Origin: Ruminococcus sp.
GTDB lineage: Bacteria > Bacillota > Clostridia > Oscillospirales > Ruminococcaceae
Assembly: GCA_017471405.1 (NCBI GenBank)
Contig: JAFUTK010000060.1
Span: forward strand, 1 to 61,202
Length of the DNA stretch: 61,202 bases
Reading direction: 5' to 3'
Positions 41,492-60,469 of the stretch are shown in pieces. How positions within the stretch are numbered: the first letter of the stretch is position 1; the number at the start of each line of letters is the position of its first letter. Made by a program: the position numbers and the translations under genes. The notes beneath the pieces are model-generated. The model searched no databases. It had not been told where the DNA came from and saw nothing but the letters and a program-made list of their open reading frames with translations.

Positions 41492-42181
41492 TTATCTTGT
41501 CGTCAGAAACTTTATCGCTCTCTCAATGGAGTCCTTCGAGTTGCCCCAGTCTGCATTTTTGGAGGTATTGCGGTAATCGTACATCTTGCAGTAGTGCGAA
41601 ACGTCCGCCTCCAATGCATCAAGGTACTTTTTCGTCAGTTCCCCGCAGTCGTTCACAAACTGCCCCAGCCACTTCTTTTCAAGTGATGTGGAAGCCATCG
41701 TCACCAGCAGTTCGTAGTGCGGCAGGCACAGCTGCTCCTGCTGTGAAAACAGCTCCCTGAACTCTCTCTCTTTTTGGTAGAGCTCAAAAAAGGTCACCAT
41801 CAGCCGCGACATTCCCCACTCTATCTTAGAGCACACAAAGCAATCGTTGTTGATGACCGATACCTTCTTCTGCTTGGCGGTCTTGCTCTCGAACATTCCC
41901 GTCTTGGCCTTCTCAAACACATTCTTTTGCAGCGACTGCAAGTGCGTCTGAAGCATCAGCGCCAGCGAGAGACGGTTCTTGCAGGCTCTCATCTGCTCAA
42001 AATGGGTCTTGCAGAAGCCCTGCCTGTTAGTCTCGATGCGCACATCAGGCTCCATCATCGCCGCCCCCATAATGTAATCCACAGTGCGCTGCTCCAGCAT
42101 ATCTCTCATGCGGCAGATGGGGCAGCCCTCCTTGGGCTCGAATATCTCGTTTACGGGTATCGTCAGAATACTTTCTCTCAT
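41492..42181 (-). CDS. DUF6062-family protein with paired-cysteine motifs
   Basis: 229-aa predicted cytoplasmic helical protein. Two similar halves each carry CxxC followed by a Cys/His pair: GCPICRMR with GFCKTHFEQM, and CFVCSKIE with CLPHYELL. These look like two metal-binding (probably zinc) sites. The start ESILTIPVNEIFEPKEGCPIC is typical of DUF6062; function unknown. It is co-directional with the OGG gene and divergent from the membrane protein gene at 42263. Confidence 0.85.
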   Translation of the reverse strand: MRESILTIPVNEIFEPKEGCPICRMRDMLEQRTVDYIMGAAMMEPDVRIETNRQGFCKTHFEQMRACKNRLSLALMLQTHLQSLQKNVFEKAKTGMFESKTAKQKKVSVINNDCFVCSKIEWGMSRLMVTFFELYQKEREFRELFSQQEQLCLPHYELLVTMASTSLEKKWLGQFVNDCGELTKKYLDALEADVSHYCKMYDYRNTSKNADWGNSKDSIERAIKFLTTR

Positions 42182-42224: not shown

Positions 42225-42262
42225 AGGAATTGAAGGATTTTTCAAGAGGGGAGAACGAAAAA

Positions 42263-43231
42263 ATGCGCAAGGACACCCTGCTCCTGCTGGAGCGTATCGC
42301 TGTGGTGATAATTGTGGGAGCGGTGAGCTATGCCCTGTTCTTCTCCTTAAGCGGAGGAGGGGACATTGCCCTTGAGGCTGCCCTCGACGCCGTCTTTGTG
42401 ACCATAGCCGCCCTGATGGTGATAGCCTTCGTCAAGAATTTGAGGAAGTACTCAAAGACTGGGCAATTTCTGGGAGTTCCGCCCCCGGCTGCTCATATGG
42501 GTATCGCGGCGCATCTTGTCTGGAAGCTGTGCTGGCTGTGCCTTTGCGCCGCCTGCGTTCTCGTCAATCATTCAGATAACGAAACGCTTGAAAACTTAGC
42601 TACTATGATGCTGGGCTTTTGGCTGATGACCCTTATTCCGGCGATAGTTCTGCGGATAGCCTTTTACTCCCGCAAGACAAATATAATCAGGGGCAAGCCC
42701 AATGATGTTATGGGCTACCGCTGGTACTTCGGCAGCGGTGAGGGCACTCATACCAAAACTACCTCCGCGGACTTCAATGCGCAGGACGGCCATTTAGCCG
42801 AGAGGTTCGAGGCCGTCACAAACGGCAGGCTCCCCCTGCCCTCCGACAACACCCCTCCGACGGCTGTGCTCCTGCGGGACGGGTATGCTTTCTCGGTGCT
42901 GCAGGTGCAGACCGGCACATTAGAGTCAGTCGCCGCTATGACCGAAAAAACCTTCCTGAAAGGCGCCAGCGAGCTCTGCCAAAGGCTGGGGTATGACGCC
43001 TTCCTCGACCCGGAGGACTGGAAGGCAATAGTCACCTCCAGCGCCGACCAATGGGTAATAAACCGCCTTGAGGGCGGGGTGGATATCAGCTACTATCTGC
43101 TCTCCTGCCTGGATATGCTGCTGTTTCCCCGGGGGCTCTCGGTGGTGGAGGTCACCAACTACGGCGGCAAGGTCCGCTTTGCGGTGATAGTCCCCTCGGA
43201 TAAGCTCCGGCTCTTCGGAGGCAGGGGCTGA
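42263..43231 (+). CDS. Membrane protein of unknown function, 322 aa
   Basis: Four hydrophobic helices in the first 145 residues (about 9-30, 38-58, 80-102, 112-134), then a soluble domain of about 180 residues with no recognised family (motifs MGYRWYFGSGEGTH, ADQWVINRLEGGVDISYYLL). ATG 42263 is chosen because GAGGGGAG lies 10 bases upstream; an earlier TTG in frame overlaps the leader. A single-gene transcript with its own promoter. Confidence 0.75.
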   Translation: MRKDTLLLLERIAVVIIVGAVSYALFFSLSGGGDIALEAALDAVFVTIAALMVIAFVKNLRKYSKTGQFLGVPPPAAHMGIAAHLVWKLCWLCLCAACVLVNHSDNETLENLATMMLGFWLMTLIPAIVLRIAFYSRKTNIIRGKPNDVMGYRWYFGSGEGTHTKTTSADFNAQDGHLAERFEAVTNGRLPLPSDNTPPTAVLLRDGYAFSVLQVQTGTLESVAAMTEKTFLKGASELCQRLGYDAFLDPEDWKAIVTSSADQWVINRLEGGVDISYYLLSCLDMLLFPRGLSVVEVTNYGGKVRFAVIVPSDKLRLFGGRG

Positions 43232-43941: not shown

Positions 43942-43995
43942 GCATTTATGTATATATACTGCCGCGCTGCGCGGCAAAAAAAAGGAACTGACCTT

Positions 43996-44784
43996 ATGGA
44001 TAAAAATAACAGGCCGCGTCGCCCCGTTCAGCAGGACGATGAGCGGGACGAGCAGCTGATAATCGGGCGCAACCCCGTCACCGAGGCTATAAAGTCCGGA
44101 ATGAATATCGACGCTATATATGTGGACCCCGACGCCGGCGGCTCGATAGGGCATATCCTCTCGCTTGCGAAGCAGCAGGGGATAGTCGTCAAGAACGCCG
44201 ACGACAGAAAGCTCTCTAAGATGTGCAGGGGAGCCTCCCATCAGGGGATAATTGCGGTGGGGGCCTGTGCCGAGTATGTGTCTGTAGATGATATACTCAA
44301 GGCTGCCGAGGATAAAAACGAGGAGCCCTTTATCATCATCTGCGACGAGATAGAGGATCCCCATAATCTGGGAGCCATTATCAGAACTGCCGAAACTGCG
44401 GGCGCCCACGGCGTCATCATACCGAAAAGGCGCAGCGCTTCGCTGAACTACACCGTATTCAAGACCTCTGCCGGAGCTGCAAGCTATGTGCCCGTTGCAA
44501 GGGTCTCCAATCTGGCCTCCGCCATTGACGACCTGAAAAAGAGGGGGGTCTGGATCTACGGCACCGACGGCGCCGGCGAGGATTACGCCTCCGTCAGTCT
44601 GACAGGCCCTGTGGGGCTGGTCATAGGCTCGGAGGGCTTTGGAATGGGGCGTCTTATCAAGGATAAATGCGATCACCTTTTGCGCCTCCCTATGGCGGGC
44701 AGGATAACCTCCCTCAACGCATCAGTCGCTGCGGGGATATTTATGTATGAGATCGTAAGGCAGCGTAGGAGCTGCATAAAGTAA
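43996..44784 (+). CDS. rlmB: 23S rRNA 2'-O-methyltransferase, RlmB/SpoU family
   Basis: 262-aa SPOUT methyltransferase, expected to methylate G2251 of 23S rRNA with S-adenosylmethionine. The N-terminal substrate-binding domain starts IIGRNPVTEAIKSG. The knotted catalytic domain has DEIEDPHNLGAIIRTAE, VIGSEGFGM and the LPMAGRITSLNASVAAGI motif 3. ATG 43996 has AAAAGGAAC upstream; the frame extends a little further back. The next gene starts 12 bases later, so the pair is probably co-transcribed. Confidence 0.94.
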   Translation: MDKNNRPRRPVQQDDERDEQLIIGRNPVTEAIKSGMNIDAIYVDPDAGGSIGHILSLAKQQGIVVKNADDRKLSKMCRGASHQGIIAVGACAEYVSVDDILKAAEDKNEEPFIIICDEIEDPHNLGAIIRTAETAGAHGVIIPKRRSASLNYTVFKTSAGAASYVPVARVSNLASAIDDLKKRGVWIYGTDGAGEDYASVSLTGPVGLVIGSEGFGMGRLIKDKCDHLLRLPMAGRITSLNASVAAGIFMYEIVRQRRSCIK

Positions 44785-44796
44785 GGAGCTGATCAC

Positions 44797-46992
44797 TTGT
44801 CTGACAAGCTGTCGATCGACGATATAGTCAATGAGTACAACGAAAAGAAGGCTAAGGATGCGGAGCAGGAGGCTCCCGCTCAGGAGGTCGAGCCCATTAT
44901 CCCGGACGTTCCCGCGGAGCAGGCTGACCCCGAGCGCGCAGAGAAGAATGCCGAGCTTATCGAAAGCATTATGAAGATGCGGCGTGAGAGCGGCGGCGTC
45001 TCCGAGGAGAGCGAGGAAACGCCTGTGAGCCGTCCCCACGTCAGCGATATTGATATGGGCCTCACCGGCAAGATAATCCCCAAGACTGAGGAGATCGAGC
45101 GGGTGGATATTCCCTCCGACTTAGACTATGAGGAGAAATCAAAGCTGCTCCGCGACCACAGACGCAGCAAGGTGGATAGCTTCCGCCTAAAGCACGCCGA
45201 GGATCCGGAGGAGGAAGAGGAGATAGAGACCAAGCACACCGGTCAGCACGAATTCGAGCAGTTCGAGGACGAGGACGAGGTGCTCTCGGATATCCTCCAG
45301 GTCAAGCAGAACCTGACTGTGAGAATGATAGTGCTGCTGTTTGCGGGAGTGTTCTCCCTGCTGATAACGCTGGCTAACGACTTCGGGCTCTCGCTGGTCA
45401 AGGTGTTCGACAAGGTGGAGTTCCCCTCCACATACCTGTTCACTAACACCATAGCAGGGCTTGTGGCTATCGCCATTTCCTATACGGTAGTGCTGGAGGG
45501 TATAAAGAACATCTTCCGCCGCCGCGCCGACTGCGACAGCATCGCTGCCATAGGCATACTGGTGAGCGTTGTTTCTGGCATTGCCACGCTGTTTGAGCCG
45601 TCTATCGTGCGCCAGAGCTTTTACCATATCTACACATCAATCGCCATCATAGGGCTGATATTCAACACCTTGGGCAAGCTGATGATAGTCAAGCGCACCG
45701 AGCGCAACTTCCGCTTTGTTGCCGATGACTTCGAGCGCTGCGCCCTTGTCACCGTCGATGACGAGGACACCGCAGGAAAGTTCACTAAGGGCGTGCTCAA
45801 CGACTTTCCCGAGCTGGCTACTATGCGCCGGACAGAGTTTATCAAGGACTTTATGAAGAACTCCTATTCCTCCGACGTGGCCGACACCTACGCCCGCAGA
45901 ATGACCCCGCTGATACTTTTAGCGGGAGTGATAGTCGGGCTGCTGTCAATGGTGTTTGAAAAGAACACCGCCGGTATGACCGAAAAGGTGTTCAATATGC
46001 TGGCAGTTATGTCAGGGACGATAACCCTCTGCTCGTCGCTGTCGCTGATGCTTATCGTTAATATCCCGCTGGGAAGAGCGCAGAACAAGTATCTGCAATA
46101 TTCCGGCGTAATACTTGGCTATTCCGCTGTTGACCGTTTCTGCGACACCAACTCCGTCCTTGTGGACGCAGAGCAGCTGTTCCCCAAGGGAATGGTAGAC
46201 CTGAAAAGCATCAAGCTGCTGGGATCAACCAAGATAGAGGAGTGCATACTTTATGCCGCCAGCCTTGCCTGCCAGGCGGGGAGCGTGCTCAAGCCTACCT
46301 TCTACAAAATGCTCCGGGGAAAGACCGAGATGCTCTACCCCGTAGAGAGCTATATCTACGAGGACGGGCTGGGTCTCTCCGGCTGGATAGAGAATAAGCG
46401 TGTGCTTTTCGGCTCCAGAGAGCTGATGGAGAACCACTCCATAGAGGGACTCCCCCCCAAGAGCAAGGAGGCGGACTACGCCAAGGGCAATATGGTGCTG
46501 TATCTCTCGGTATCGGGCGTTGTTTCGATGCTGTTCGTGGTGCAGGCAAAGGCAAGCCTTTCGGTGTCCCGCTGGCTCAAGGAGATGGGAAATAACGGCA
46601 TCGTCACCGTTGTGAGAACAGTAGACGGCTTCATCGACCTGGACTTCCTCTCCGAGCTCTTCGGCGCGGACAAGTCTATGCTTAAGCTCCTGCCCTTCCG
46701 TTTTCATAAGGATTACGTAAAGGAGACCGAGTACACCCCGGAGGTTTCCTCCCCGATGCTCTGCTCGGGACATTTCCCCTCCTTTGCTATGCTGCTGATA
46801 GGCACCAAGAACCTAAAGCAGATAACCGCTCTGGGCGTGGCTATACAGGCCGGCGCCGCAGTCCTGGGAGCGGGCATCGCCCTTGTGATGACCCTGCTGG
46901 GCACCTTCGGGCAGATAAACCCCACCTTCGCGCTGGTATACAATCTGGTATTTATGCTGGTGACGCTGGCAGCGGAGAACAGAAAAGTCTGA
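44797..46992 (+). CDS. Degenerate P1B-type-ATPase-like membrane protein
   Basis: 731 aa, TTG start with AAGGAG 8 bases upstream. A disordered acidic region (about 1-165) is followed by four membrane helices, a cytoplasmic segment in the A-domain place without TGE, two helices, a large cytoplasmic domain, and two final helices. The plan follows heavy-metal P-type ATPases: IVNIPLGRAQ (423-426) lies where CPCALG is expected; VLVDAEQLF (D457) replaces DKTGTLT; VYED-GLGLSGW-KRVLFGSRELME matches the N-domain. No GDGxND is present. It cannot be a normal ion pump; a regulatory or scaffold role is possible. Confidence 0.75.
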   Translation: MSDKLSIDDIVNEYNEKKAKDAEQEAPAQEVEPIIPDVPAEQADPERAEKNAELIESIMKMRRESGGVSEESEETPVSRPHVSDIDMGLTGKIIPKTEEIERVDIPSDLDYEEKSKLLRDHRRSKVDSFRLKHAEDPEEEEEIETKHTGQHEFEQFEDEDEVLSDILQVKQNLTVRMIVLLFAGVFSLLITLANDFGLSLVKVFDKVEFPSTYLFTNTIAGLVAIAISYTVVLEGIKNIFRRRADCDSIAAIGILVSVVSGIATLFEPSIVRQSFYHIYTSIAIIGLIFNTLGKLMIVKRTERNFRFVADDFERCALVTVDDEDTAGKFTKGVLNDFPELATMRRTEFIKDFMKNSYSSDVADTYARRMTPLILLAGVIVGLLSMVFEKNTAGMTEKVFNMLAVMSGTITLCSSLSLMLIVNIPLGRAQNKYLQYSGVILGYSAVDRFCDTNSVLVDAEQLFPKGMVDLKSIKLLGSTKIEECILYAASLACQAGSVLKPTFYKMLRGKTEMLYPVESYIYEDGLGLSGWIENKRVLFGSRELMENHSIEGLPPKSKEADYAKGNMVLYLSVSGVVSMLFVVQAKASLSVSRWLKEMGNNGIVTVVRTVDGFIDLDFLSELFGADKSMLKLLPFRFHKDYVKETEYTPEVSSPMLCSGHFPSFAMLLIGTKNLKQITALGVAIQAGAAVLGAGIALVMTLLGTFGQINPTFALVYNLVFMLVTLAAENRKV

Positions 46993-57768: not shown

Positions 57769-57838
57769 TAATATTTCAGCTCCCCTGCGAATATGCTTTA
57801 CCAAGCGGACACGCTCTCAAATGAAAGGAAGATGTGAA

Positions 57839-60469
57839 ATGACAGAGACACCCGTAAAGCCGCAGGAAAAGCTGTTCTCCGAACCCTCCGGACTGACTGA
57901 GGCCAGAGCCCGCAGGCTCTTAAATCTCAACGGTCCCAACCGCCTTGCCGCCAAGAAGCGCAGGAGCGCCGCCTCCATTTTTGCGGGGCAGTTTAGGGAC
58001 CTGATGGTGATGATACTCCTAGTCGCGGCGGGAGTGTCGGTGCTCATAGGGGAGATAGCCGATGCGGTCCCCATAATGCTGATACTGGTCACCAACGCAG
58101 TGCTAGGCTTCTTTCAGGAATACCGCGCCGAAAAAACGCTGGAAAAGCTCACTGAGCTCACCGCCCCCACCGCCAAGGTCAGACGGGACGGCAGGCTGGT
58201 GACTATCCCTGCCGAAAGCATAGTCGTGGGGGACGTTATAGAGCTGGAGGCCGGTGACCGCGTCCCCGCCGACTGCGTTATCCTCTCATCAAGGGGACTT
58301 TGCTGTGACGAATCCCTGCTGACCGGTGAATCCGCCGCCTGCGACAAATCCCCGCGCCTCGACCGGCCGGACATCACCTCCCCCAGCCTTGAATATATGG
58401 TCTATATGGGGACGGTAGTGCTCAAGGGCTCCGCCTGCTGTGAGGTCACCGCAACGGGTATGCATACCCAGATGGGTAAGGTCTCCGACCTGCTGCAAAG
58501 CACCGGCGAGGAGCTCACCCCCTTGCAGCAAAAGCTGGGAGAACTGGGGAGGGTGCTAGCGGTGCTCTGCCTCGGAGTGTGCGTTATCGTGTTTGCTGCG
58601 GGAGTGCTCCGGGGGGAGAATATTCTTGAAATGCTGATGACCTCCATATCCATAGCTGTGGCGGCTATCCCGGAGGGACTTCCGGCGGCGGTGACTATCG
58701 CCCTCGCCCTTGCGGTGAGAAGGATGCTGGCGCAGAAGGCGCTGATAAACCGCCTTCATTCGGTGGAGACGCTGGGCTGCGCTTCGGTCATCTGCACCGA
58801 CAAGACCGGCACCCTAACCCAGAACAGAATGACCGTCACCGGCATTACAGTCTGCTCGGAAAAGGACGAGGCTCTTACCTTATCAAACGGGCGCCTTATG
58901 GATAAGTCCGGCGGGGAGCTAAAGCCCTGGGATAACTCCGCTCTGCGGGAGCTGTTGTGCTGTGCCGCTGTCTGCAATAACGCCAGGCTGGAAACGGTAG
59001 ACCTCACCCGCTCCCGGGACAGGGGCGGGGAGATATCCGGTCTGAAGGCCTTCGGCGACCCAACGGAGGCAGCATTGCTCACCGCCGCCGTCTCCGCCGG
59101 GATAGACGCCGAGAGCTTTCGCCGCCTGCGCACCGACGAGCTCCCATTTGACTCGGAGCGCCGGTATATGACCGTCACCGTCACCGACGGAGGCGAGAGC
59201 CGCATCTACAAAAAGGGCGCCCCGGACGCGGTGCTTTCCTCCTGCGGCTATGTGATATCCGGGGAGGGGGAGGCTCTCCCGCTGGGAGATGCCCGCCGCA
59301 GGGCGATAAATAACGCCGTTGAGAGCTACGCCGCCGATGGCGGGAGGGTGCTGGGCTTTTCCCTCATAGCCGAGGGCAGGGAGGTCTTTTTAGGCGTGAT
59401 GTCCCTCTCTGATCCGCTGCGGCCGGAGGCCGAAAGAGCCGTTCGTGAGTGCTCAAAGGCGGGCATCAGAACGGTGATGATAACCGGCGACCACAAGCTT
59501 ACCGCCTGCGCCATAGCGCGCGAGGCGGGCATACTCACCAAGGGAATGACCGCCGTTACCGGGGCGGAGCTGGATAAGCTTTCCGACCAGCAGCTGGACG
59601 ATATTTTAGATGAGACTGCCGTATTCGCAAGGGTTTCCCCCGAGCACAAGCTGCGCATCGTCCGGGCGTTCAAGCGGAGAGGCAAGGTCTGCGCTATGAC
59701 CGGCGACGGCGTCAACGACGCTCCCGCCGTCCGGGAGGCCTCCATTGGCGTGGCTATGGGGCAGAGCGGCACCGACGTCACCAAGCAGGCCGCCGACTGC
59801 ATCCTCCTTGACGACAACTTCGCAACCCTCGTCACCGCCGTCCGGGAGGGCAGGACGATATATCAGAGCATACGCAAGTTTGTGCGGTATCTCATCTCCT
59901 GCAACATCGGCGAGGTGCTGACTATGCTGGGGGGCATTATAATGGGGCTGCCCATAGTGCTGCTGCCGGCGCAGATACTGCTTGTAAACCTCGTCACCGA
60001 CGGCCTGCCCGCCATAGCTCTGGGAGCCGAGCCCTCCGACCCCGACATTATGGAGCACCCGCCCCGCTCGGAGAACGAGAGCTTTTTCAGCGGCGGCCTG
60101 CTCTACCGAATGATAGTCCGCGGAGCCCTAATCGGCATAGTTACCCTTGCCGCCTTTACGGTGGTTCTTAAGCTGGGCGGAGGCCTTGCCGCCGCCCGCA
60201 GCGCCGCTTTGGTAACGCTGGTGCTGACGCAGCTTGTCCACGTCTACGAGTGCCGCAGCGAGGAGCGCTCCCTCTTCCGCCACAGAACGAGAGCCGGAGC
60301 CTTCATACATATCTCGGTGGGGATATCCCTTGCCTGTATGCTGGCGGCGATGTATGTGCCCTTCCTTGCGGGGGTTTTCGCACTGATACCGCTGACAGCG
60401 GTGCAGTGGCTGGTGTGCATAGCTCTGACGGCAGCGATACCCCTCTTGGCGTCGCTTATCGGGAAATAG
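57839..60469 (+). CDS. SERCA-type P-type Ca2+ ATPase
   Basis: 876-aa P2A pump with all catalytic motifs: TGES (A domain), DKTGTLTQN (D321, phosphorylated), FDSERRYMTV and KGAPDAVL (N domain), and TGDGVNDAP (P domain). Calcium-site residues typical of SERCA are present: AAIPEGLP in M4, NIGE in M5 and NLVTDGLPA in M6. ATG 57839 follows AAAGGA; an earlier ATG (57821) lacks a ribosome site. It lies downstream of dpaAB, suggesting a role in spore calcium loading; otherwise it would export calcium in growing cells. Confidence 0.93.
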   Translation: MTETPVKPQEKLFSEPSGLTEARARRLLNLNGPNRLAAKKRRSAASIFAGQFRDLMVMILLVAAGVSVLIGEIADAVPIMLILVTNAVLGFFQEYRAEKTLEKLTELTAPTAKVRRDGRLVTIPAESIVVGDVIELEAGDRVPADCVILSSRGLCCDESLLTGESAACDKSPRLDRPDITSPSLEYMVYMGTVVLKGSACCEVTATGMHTQMGKVSDLLQSTGEELTPLQQKLGELGRVLAVLCLGVCVIVFAAGVLRGENILEMLMTSISIAVAAIPEGLPAAVTIALALAVRRMLAQKALINRLHSVETLGCASVICTDKTGTLTQNRMTVTGITVCSEKDEALTLSNGRLMDKSGGELKPWDNSALRELLCCAAVCNNARLETVDLTRSRDRGGEISGLKAFGDPTEAALLTAAVSAGIDAESFRRLRTDELPFDSERRYMTVTVTDGGESRIYKKGAPDAVLSSCGYVISGEGEALPLGDARRRAINNAVESYAADGGRVLGFSLIAEGREVFLGVMSLSDPLRPEAERAVRECSKAGIRTVMITGDHKLTACAIAREAGILTKGMTAVTGAELDKLSDQQLDDILDETAVFARVSPEHKLRIVRAFKRRGKVCAMTGDGVNDAPAVREASIGVAMGQSGTDVTKQAADCILLDDNFATLVTAVREGRTIYQSIRKFVRYLISCNIGEVLTMLGGIIMGLPIVLLPAQILLVNLVTDGLPAIALGAEPSDPDIMEHPPRSENESFFSGGLLYRMIVRGALIGIVTLAAFTVVLKLGGGLAAARSAALVTLVLTQLVHVYECRSEERSLFRHRTRAGAFIHISVGISLACMLAAMYVPFLAGVFALIPLTAVQWLVCIALTAAIPLLASLIGK

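Follow-up and report, generated by a model that had tools for sequence, protein, structure and literature searches.

Genomic locus and architecture of the pseudo-pump

The window (the whole stretch of DNA that was analysed, 61,202 nucleotides; contig C42 of a host genome of 2.04 Mb that is 64% complete) carries a gene for a predicted membrane protein, here called the pseudo-pump, directly behind an rlmB-like gene. The features of the two genes are:

43948..44784, + strand: rlmB-like rRNA 2'-O-methyltransferase gene (SpoU; PF00588, 1.2e-42; PF08032, 4.4e-16)
44783..44788, + strand: AAGGAG ribosome site read from the sequence, 8 nt before the TTG start codon
44797..46992, + strand: pseudo-P1B-ATPase gene, an intact open reading frame of 731 aa with a TTG start
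44797..45291, + strand: acidic tail, residues 1-165, with 50 D/E and 22 K/R
44812..44838, + strand: N-terminal short motif SIDDIVNEY, found by the scan for the strict form of the motif
45169..45189, + strand: tail patch KVDSFRL, common to many near relatives
45307..45693, + strand: first four predicted transmembrane helices (counterparts of MA, MB, M1 and M2), residues 171-299, from the sequence, family hydropathy and hhalign alignment with a CopA-like pump
45670..45909, + strand: shortened A-domain segment, residues 292-371, from LGKLM to MTP, without TGE; 80 residues versus 145 in three true pumps
45889..46074, + strand: counterparts of M3 and M4, residues 365-426, with SSL at the CPC position (alignments, hydropathy)
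46060..46074, + strand: NIPLG, within the M3/M4 counterpart region
46165..46191, + strand: former phosphorylation loop, in which DAEQLFPKG replaces DKTGTxTxG (alignment)
46360..46386, + strand: N-domain core EDGLGLSGW with its glycines kept (alignment of 54 members)
46615..46629, + strand: RTVDG in place of the P-domain TGD, with the Asp retained (D in 52 of 54)
46684..46821, + strand: P-domain remnant from KLLPF to the last transmembrane pair, lacking the GDGxND block (alignment, hhalign)
46822..46977, + strand: final two predicted transmembrane helices (counterparts of M5 and M6), residues 676-727 (hydropathy)

The pseudo-pump gene begins 12 nt behind the end of the rlmB-like gene, and AAGGAG overlaps the stop codon of the latter (44782-44784). 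An intact gene with a good ribosome site right behind rlmB, as described by an earlier reading made from the sequence only, is indeed what the locus holds. On the 3' side follow mscL and a lactate/malate dehydrogenase gene. According to its hydropathy, the protein begins with the acidic tail and four hydrophobic segments; a short cytoplasmic part separates these from two more, and some 250 soluble residues lie ahead of the final pair. This is the segment layout of a P1B pump. The eight segments fit the pump order; a ninth, weaker one (residues 564-590) lies inside the soluble region, where a low-confidence AlphaFold model has strands.

Descent from P1B pumps

The family alignment A1 contains 53 rows; it omits four fragments (L021, L027, L032, L053) and two true pumps (L063, L064), and L006 enters it as the window's own copy. 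The CopA-like true pump L064 matches the A1 profile in hhalign with 99.7% probability (E 4.9e-26, 544 columns) along residues 76-725 of its 751, and an unrelated MATE-like transporter, used as a control, reaches only 0.2%. In the PDB, the profile matches 50 sequences, best of all CopA (3rfu, which we take to be the Legionella protein) at 7.8e-31, followed by further pumps for copper and zinc and, at weak scores, by Na,K-ATPase and other pumps. The matches also include one cilia protein (3.6e-6), aligned to profile positions 46-221, which are mostly tail. A phmmer search with the single sequence finds 3rfu at 4.9e-10 as its sole match up to E 10. The profile comparison with P-type pumps is collinear, and it upholds the helix and domain order of heavy-metal P-type ATPases that the sequence-only reading had seen in weak matches.

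Family models recognise the protein faintly. The window protein matches the NCBIfam models TIGR01525 (5.2e-7) and CopA (8e-7) with 28.9 and 27.6 bits, far under the cut-offs of 346 and 1316; at E <0.001 the CopA model is matched by 44 and the heavy-metal model by 42 of the 53 members. The window protein has no Pfam match even at E 10, and none of the 53 members matches a P-type Pfam family at E 0.001, where one chance-looking Extensin match appears. AlphaFold models computed from the window protein and four close relatives are both of low confidence, with mean pLDDT values of 44 (body) and 40 (P/N region). The collinear similarity over the transmembrane, P and N domains, read from profile alignment and not from structure, indicates descent from a P1B pump.

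A quick tree of 285 columns, from which the P2-like L002 and L003 were left out, separates 53 pseudo-pump rows from 50 true P1B rows by a branch with an SH-aLRT value of 100. A single origin fits this tree but is unproved, because nine rows, every one a pseudo-pump, are long-branched and the root is unknown. From an ancestral CopA-like P1B pump, the family probably arose a single time, close to or at the base of the order.

Lost and replaced catalytic parts

Motifs were compared in an alignment of seven true pumps with the 54 members that reach 500 aa or more, among them the window's copy; L021, L027 and L032, shorter than 500 aa, were left out. DKTGT occurs at the aligned site in none of the 54 members. 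Its Lys is found in 0 of 54 and its Asp in 26, including the window, so that some residual phosphate chemistry is still conceivable from the sequence. The letters DKTG are seen only in the tail, in L028 of the first set and in three of 34 further loci. The replacement of DKTGT by DAEQL in the window had been placed in the correct register, as the family alignment and the alignment with 3rfu both have it. DAEQL itself is conserved only among close relatives of the window's copy; what the family as a whole shares is the loop xxxLFPxG (F 46/54, P 46/54, G 37/54).

Each of the 54 members shows gaps in the GDGxND columns; one of them, L053, is cut before the block by a frame break. In hhalign the gap is set slightly later, with PMLCSG opposite AMVGDG and the next 34 pump residues, starting IND, left out; both aligners thus place GDGxND and the block behind it among the missing parts. 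GDGxxD is found nowhere in the 58 open reading frames other than true pumps, and GDGxND in none of the 34 further loci, about ten of which come from genomes already counted. The A-domain segment measures 67-80 residues in the 21 members printed, compared with 145 in three pumps. Within this segment the letters TGE occur only in L047 and L051, without the DExxLTGE context; outside it they occur in about a dozen members. The absence of TGE and GDGxND from the window protein, noted earlier, is therefore part of a larger loss than was claimed, in which the A domain is cut and the P-domain block gone.

The metal site is affected as well. None of CPC, SPC, CPH and TPC occurs in the 58 open reading frames other than true pumps, and SPC appears once among the 34 further loci, before M4. 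At the CPC site, Cys occupies the first position in 3 of 54 members and the third in 0 of the 51 members listed. The proposal that NIPLG is what became of CPCALG does not hold: CPC aligns with SSL (in TLCSSLSL), and NIPLG lies near ATPTAI, which follows CPCALGL in pumps, in the same register against 3rfu. Other parts are kept, namely the second glycine of the N-domain GxG (53/54), a later glycine (54/54), and the Asp of the old P-domain TGD (52/54).

The Post-Albers cycle is not known to run without the Asp motif and GDGxND. Judged by its motifs, the pseudo-pump should not be an active P1B ATPase, as DKTGT, GDGxND, a full TGE-bearing A domain and CPC/SPC are all lacking. Homologues with intact DKTGT and GDGxND, which the sequence-only reading had named as the mark of a lesion, were sought, and neither motif stands at its aligned site in any of the 54 members.

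Distribution and selection

In a sample of the order, presumably GTDB Oscillospirales, the family profile matches 275 of 295 genomes at E 1e-50, which refutes a single-genome lesion. Among the good-quality genomes of the order, 219 of 225 have a match; those without are G207, G242, G268, G282, G311 and G452. No more than three candidates were scored per genome; each matching genome has one match except G467, which has two. The window protein itself is matched in 57 of 61 near genomes, and two of the four misses (G037 and G041) match the family profile. Of 148 genomes sampled from the class, the five that belong to the order reach 496-997 bits, the others at most 132 bits; the best 25 of the matches from outside the order each carry a CPx motif together with DKTGT and GDGxND. 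Of 348 genomes sampled from the phylum, with the two best candidates per genome scored, the same five of the order match at E 1e-41 and the remaining 343 do not; at least 20 of these 343 lie outside the order.

Compared with seven relatives of the same genus, dN/dS is 0.08-0.19 for the body and 0.07-0.14 for the P/N region; these figures are rough because dS is near saturation. The pseudo-catalytic P/N region is the most constrained of the regions measured. The tail is looser than the body, with values of 0.20-0.34 in the six comparisons where they could be calculated. The family spans the order, is subject to purifying selection and nearly always has just one match in a genome, in line with the earlier view that the gene is not decaying.

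Pairing with rlmB and gene neighborhood

An rlmB homologue is present in 47 of 48 neighborhoods, and in 45 of the 48 loci it lies directly upstream on the same strand. The gaps between the reading frames range from -196 to 193 nt, the negative values arising because the longest open reading frame was taken. The exceptions are G016, which has no rlmB and carries MreB-like and MutS-like genes upstream (identified by eye), G019, a duplicated, N-filled stretch, and G058, in which an in-frame stop splits the pseudo-pump gene. The pair recurs in 31 of 34 further, partly overlapping, loci; in L137 the start of the reading frame coincides with the edge of the sequence, and L131 belongs to G058, already named. 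Downstream, the neighbor appears to vary, with an EF-G-like gene (by eye) in 11 loci. The pair is either selected or hardly ever broken, and the two proteins have no obvious link. Its steadiness suggests constitutive, growth-linked expression of the pseudo-pump.

Elsewhere in the window, positions 41495-42181 (- strand) encode a DUF6062 protein (2e-78), a homologue of which is also present in L080. A 333 aa reading frame at 42230-43231 (+ strand), hydrophobic near its start, has no Pfam match at E 0.001. Positions 57821-60469 (+ strand) hold an intact true P-type ATPase of 882 aa with DKTGT, GDGVND and IPEGLP, the last of which leads us to take it as P2-like.

Acidic tail and N-terminal motif

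The acidic stretch of roughly 165 residues said to be added in front is present as residues 1-165, with 50 acidic and 22 basic side chains. Many members open with a short, DDILxE-like N-terminal motif, for example MADKFTLDDILDEY. The strict form of the motif, [STN][VIL][DE][DE]I[LIVM]xE within the first 70 aa, was searched for in reading frames of at least 150 aa. It occurs in 44 of 1491 reading frames from 240 loci, 40 of which belong to the pseudo-pump family, a share inflated because most loci were fetched for this family; the reversed form occurs in 0. The motif is present in several families of the order. The strict form is found in 22 of the 53 A1 rows and is absent in 6 of 15 members of the window's genus, which have looser forms or other starts instead.

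A pattern search across 61 whole genomes yielded 15 matches (12 in the pseudo-pump, one in a sortase, two elsewhere), compared with 2 for the reversed pattern. A looser pattern, run on 37 genomes, has 38 matches where its reversed control has 10, and is thus only partly specific; in the 30 of its loci inspected, 12 matches fall in the pseudo-pump gene, two in SecA-like genes (by eye), and the rest are mostly internal.

The sortase, from G017 (L192:857-3454, - strand, 865 aa, PF04203 1.6e-10), is encoded about 10 kb from the pseudo-pump gene. Its acidic, cytoplasmic tail of several hundred residues opens with FTVDDIIAEF, which resembles the pseudo-pump motif. This is the sole other gene found with the motif near its start and a like tail, in one genome, and the likeness hints at a cytoplasmic partner that the two proteins may share. 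Sortases as a second family with the motif were rejected, as the scan of reading frames of at least 150 aa in all loci gave the G017 sortase only. The sequences covered included 15 sortase stretches with long or odd frames, and sortase-like reading frames were seen in at least 11 of the 17 loci checked. In L225 and L230, and perhaps in L224 and L227, long reading frames carry a sortase-like end behind an apparent CinA-type domain (by eye).

Possible functions of the pseudo-pump

Order-wide retention beside rlmB under strong selection suggests that the pseudo-pump has an unrecognised structural or regulatory job. We propose, with a probability of about 0.6, that it is an ancient pseudo-pump that now serves as a membrane-anchored scaffold or regulator. 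The alignments show what has been lost relative to a CopA-like P1B pump, namely the catalytic Asp motif, the A-domain core with TGE, the P-domain part with GDGxND and the metal site CPC, and what has been gained, the long acidic tail. The P-type phosphorylation cycle should be impossible, because these catalytic parts are missing. The tail, in many members through the DDILxE-like motif, may bind a cytoplasmic partner. The transmembrane bundle and the N/P remnant with its new LFPxG loop may maintain or report a state that is conformational or depends on a nucleotide. The looser selection on the tail, the presence of the strict motif in fewer than half of the A1 rows, the partial specificity of the looser pattern and the Asp kept in 26 of 54 members count against this proposal. 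More tentatively, and with considerable doubt, we picture an order-defining pseudoenzyme scaffold whose acidic tail recruits the partner and which organises the envelope or couples it to ribosome-linked growth; it would be the first bacterial P-type pseudo-pump family described in the literature covered here.

It is unlikely, though worth weighing, that the protein is instead a nucleotide or phosphate sensor, in which the N-domain remnant binds ATP or ADP, the LFPxG loop reads out the bound state, and the tail passes the signal on. The near-invariant N-domain glycines and TGD Asp speak for such a sensor; the glycines may, however, serve the fold alone. The His of the HP motif contacts ATP in pumps, and it is not among the six commonest letters at its site, which cover 52 of 54 members. 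A degenerate P-type-like protein that binds a nucleotide is known from humans: TMEM94 has A-, P- and N-like domains in its cryo-EM structure, lacks TGES, showed no detectable ATPase activity, and bound AMPPCP with micromolar affinity (PMC12134183).

It is improbable that the protein still acts as a transporter or channel, its transmembrane bundle carrying an ion or a lipid by means other than the P-type cycle, with a gradient or a partner protein as the driving force. The eight P1B helices appear to be kept, as hydropathy and alignment indicate; however, the CPC metal site is gone, the downstream gene varies, and the most constrained part is the soluble N/P remnant, which a passive channel would hardly need. 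We regard it as very unlikely that the pseudo-pump pairs with a true P-type pump and regulates it. Five further PF00122 matches in the genome do pass the cut-off, every one of them with DKTGT and GDGxND, and one lies in the window; that true pump, however, is P2-like and 11 kb away, and heterodimers are not a known requirement of P1B pumps. Decay of a pump gene, or a lesion from sequencing or assembly, would account for the single in-frame stops in G058 (L032, L074, L131), G453 and G238 and for the frame break in L053, which may be real, errors of sequencing or recoding. For the family, such a reading is ruled out by the order-wide presence, a body dN/dS of about 0.1, and the common replacement motif LFPxG.

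Few membrane enzymes have been studied as well as P-type ATPases. A conserved dead branch, nearly always single, in a major gut and rumen order would show the pump fold turned to a structural or signalling use. It marks a core gene of the order and is a warning that such proteins may be mistaken for metal pumps.

Comparison with known systems

The pseudo-pump has the same collinear order of transmembrane helices, P domain and N domain as the P1B-1 heavy-metal ATPases (CopA; 3rfu). Unlike CopA, it has no DKTGT, GDGxND, TGE context or CPC, its A domain is reduced, it carries the long acidic tail, and no Pfam metal-binding domain is reported in its members. Compared with pumps, the family has acquired LFPxG where the phosphorylation loop was, and some of its members also the DDILxE-like tail motif.

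TMEM94 resembles the pseudo-pump in its P-type-like cytoplasmic domains and the lack of TGES. It differs in being human, structurally closest to the Ca2+ pump SPCA, and built with ten transmembrane helices and with P-like and N-like domains present. Its status is disputed, as passages of a later paper call it the ER Mg2+ ATPase (PMC13322241). TMEM94 is the nearest precedent met, with no sign of kinship to the P1B-derived family. Reuse of a P-type module in signalling is described, in the extracts covered, for a Toxoplasma guanylate cyclase with a P4-ATPase-like domain (PMC6592433), which differs from the pseudo-pump in being of P4 type, from a protist, and fused to a cyclase. No description of a bacterial P-type pseudo-pump is found in the text excerpts of the open-access literature matches listed, a scope outside which subscription papers mostly lie, and the excerpts of a 2023 review of P-type ATPases do not mention one (PMC10654040).

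Phage and plasmid records

Seven faecal records labelled 'Bacteriophage sp.' (unverified labels) match the pseudo-pump protein. One of them, MT835581.1 (L261), has an rlmB homologue 36 nt upstream of the match and is thus apparently bacterial DNA filed among phages. PHROGs gave no match for the pseudo-pump, and with the opened phage-labelled record looking bacterial, a mobile gene was rejected. Nine plasmid records match, and four of the five listed are annotated true pumps. Subdoligranulum variabile 'plasmid 3' carries a relative of 944 aa that overlaps an rlmB-like gene.
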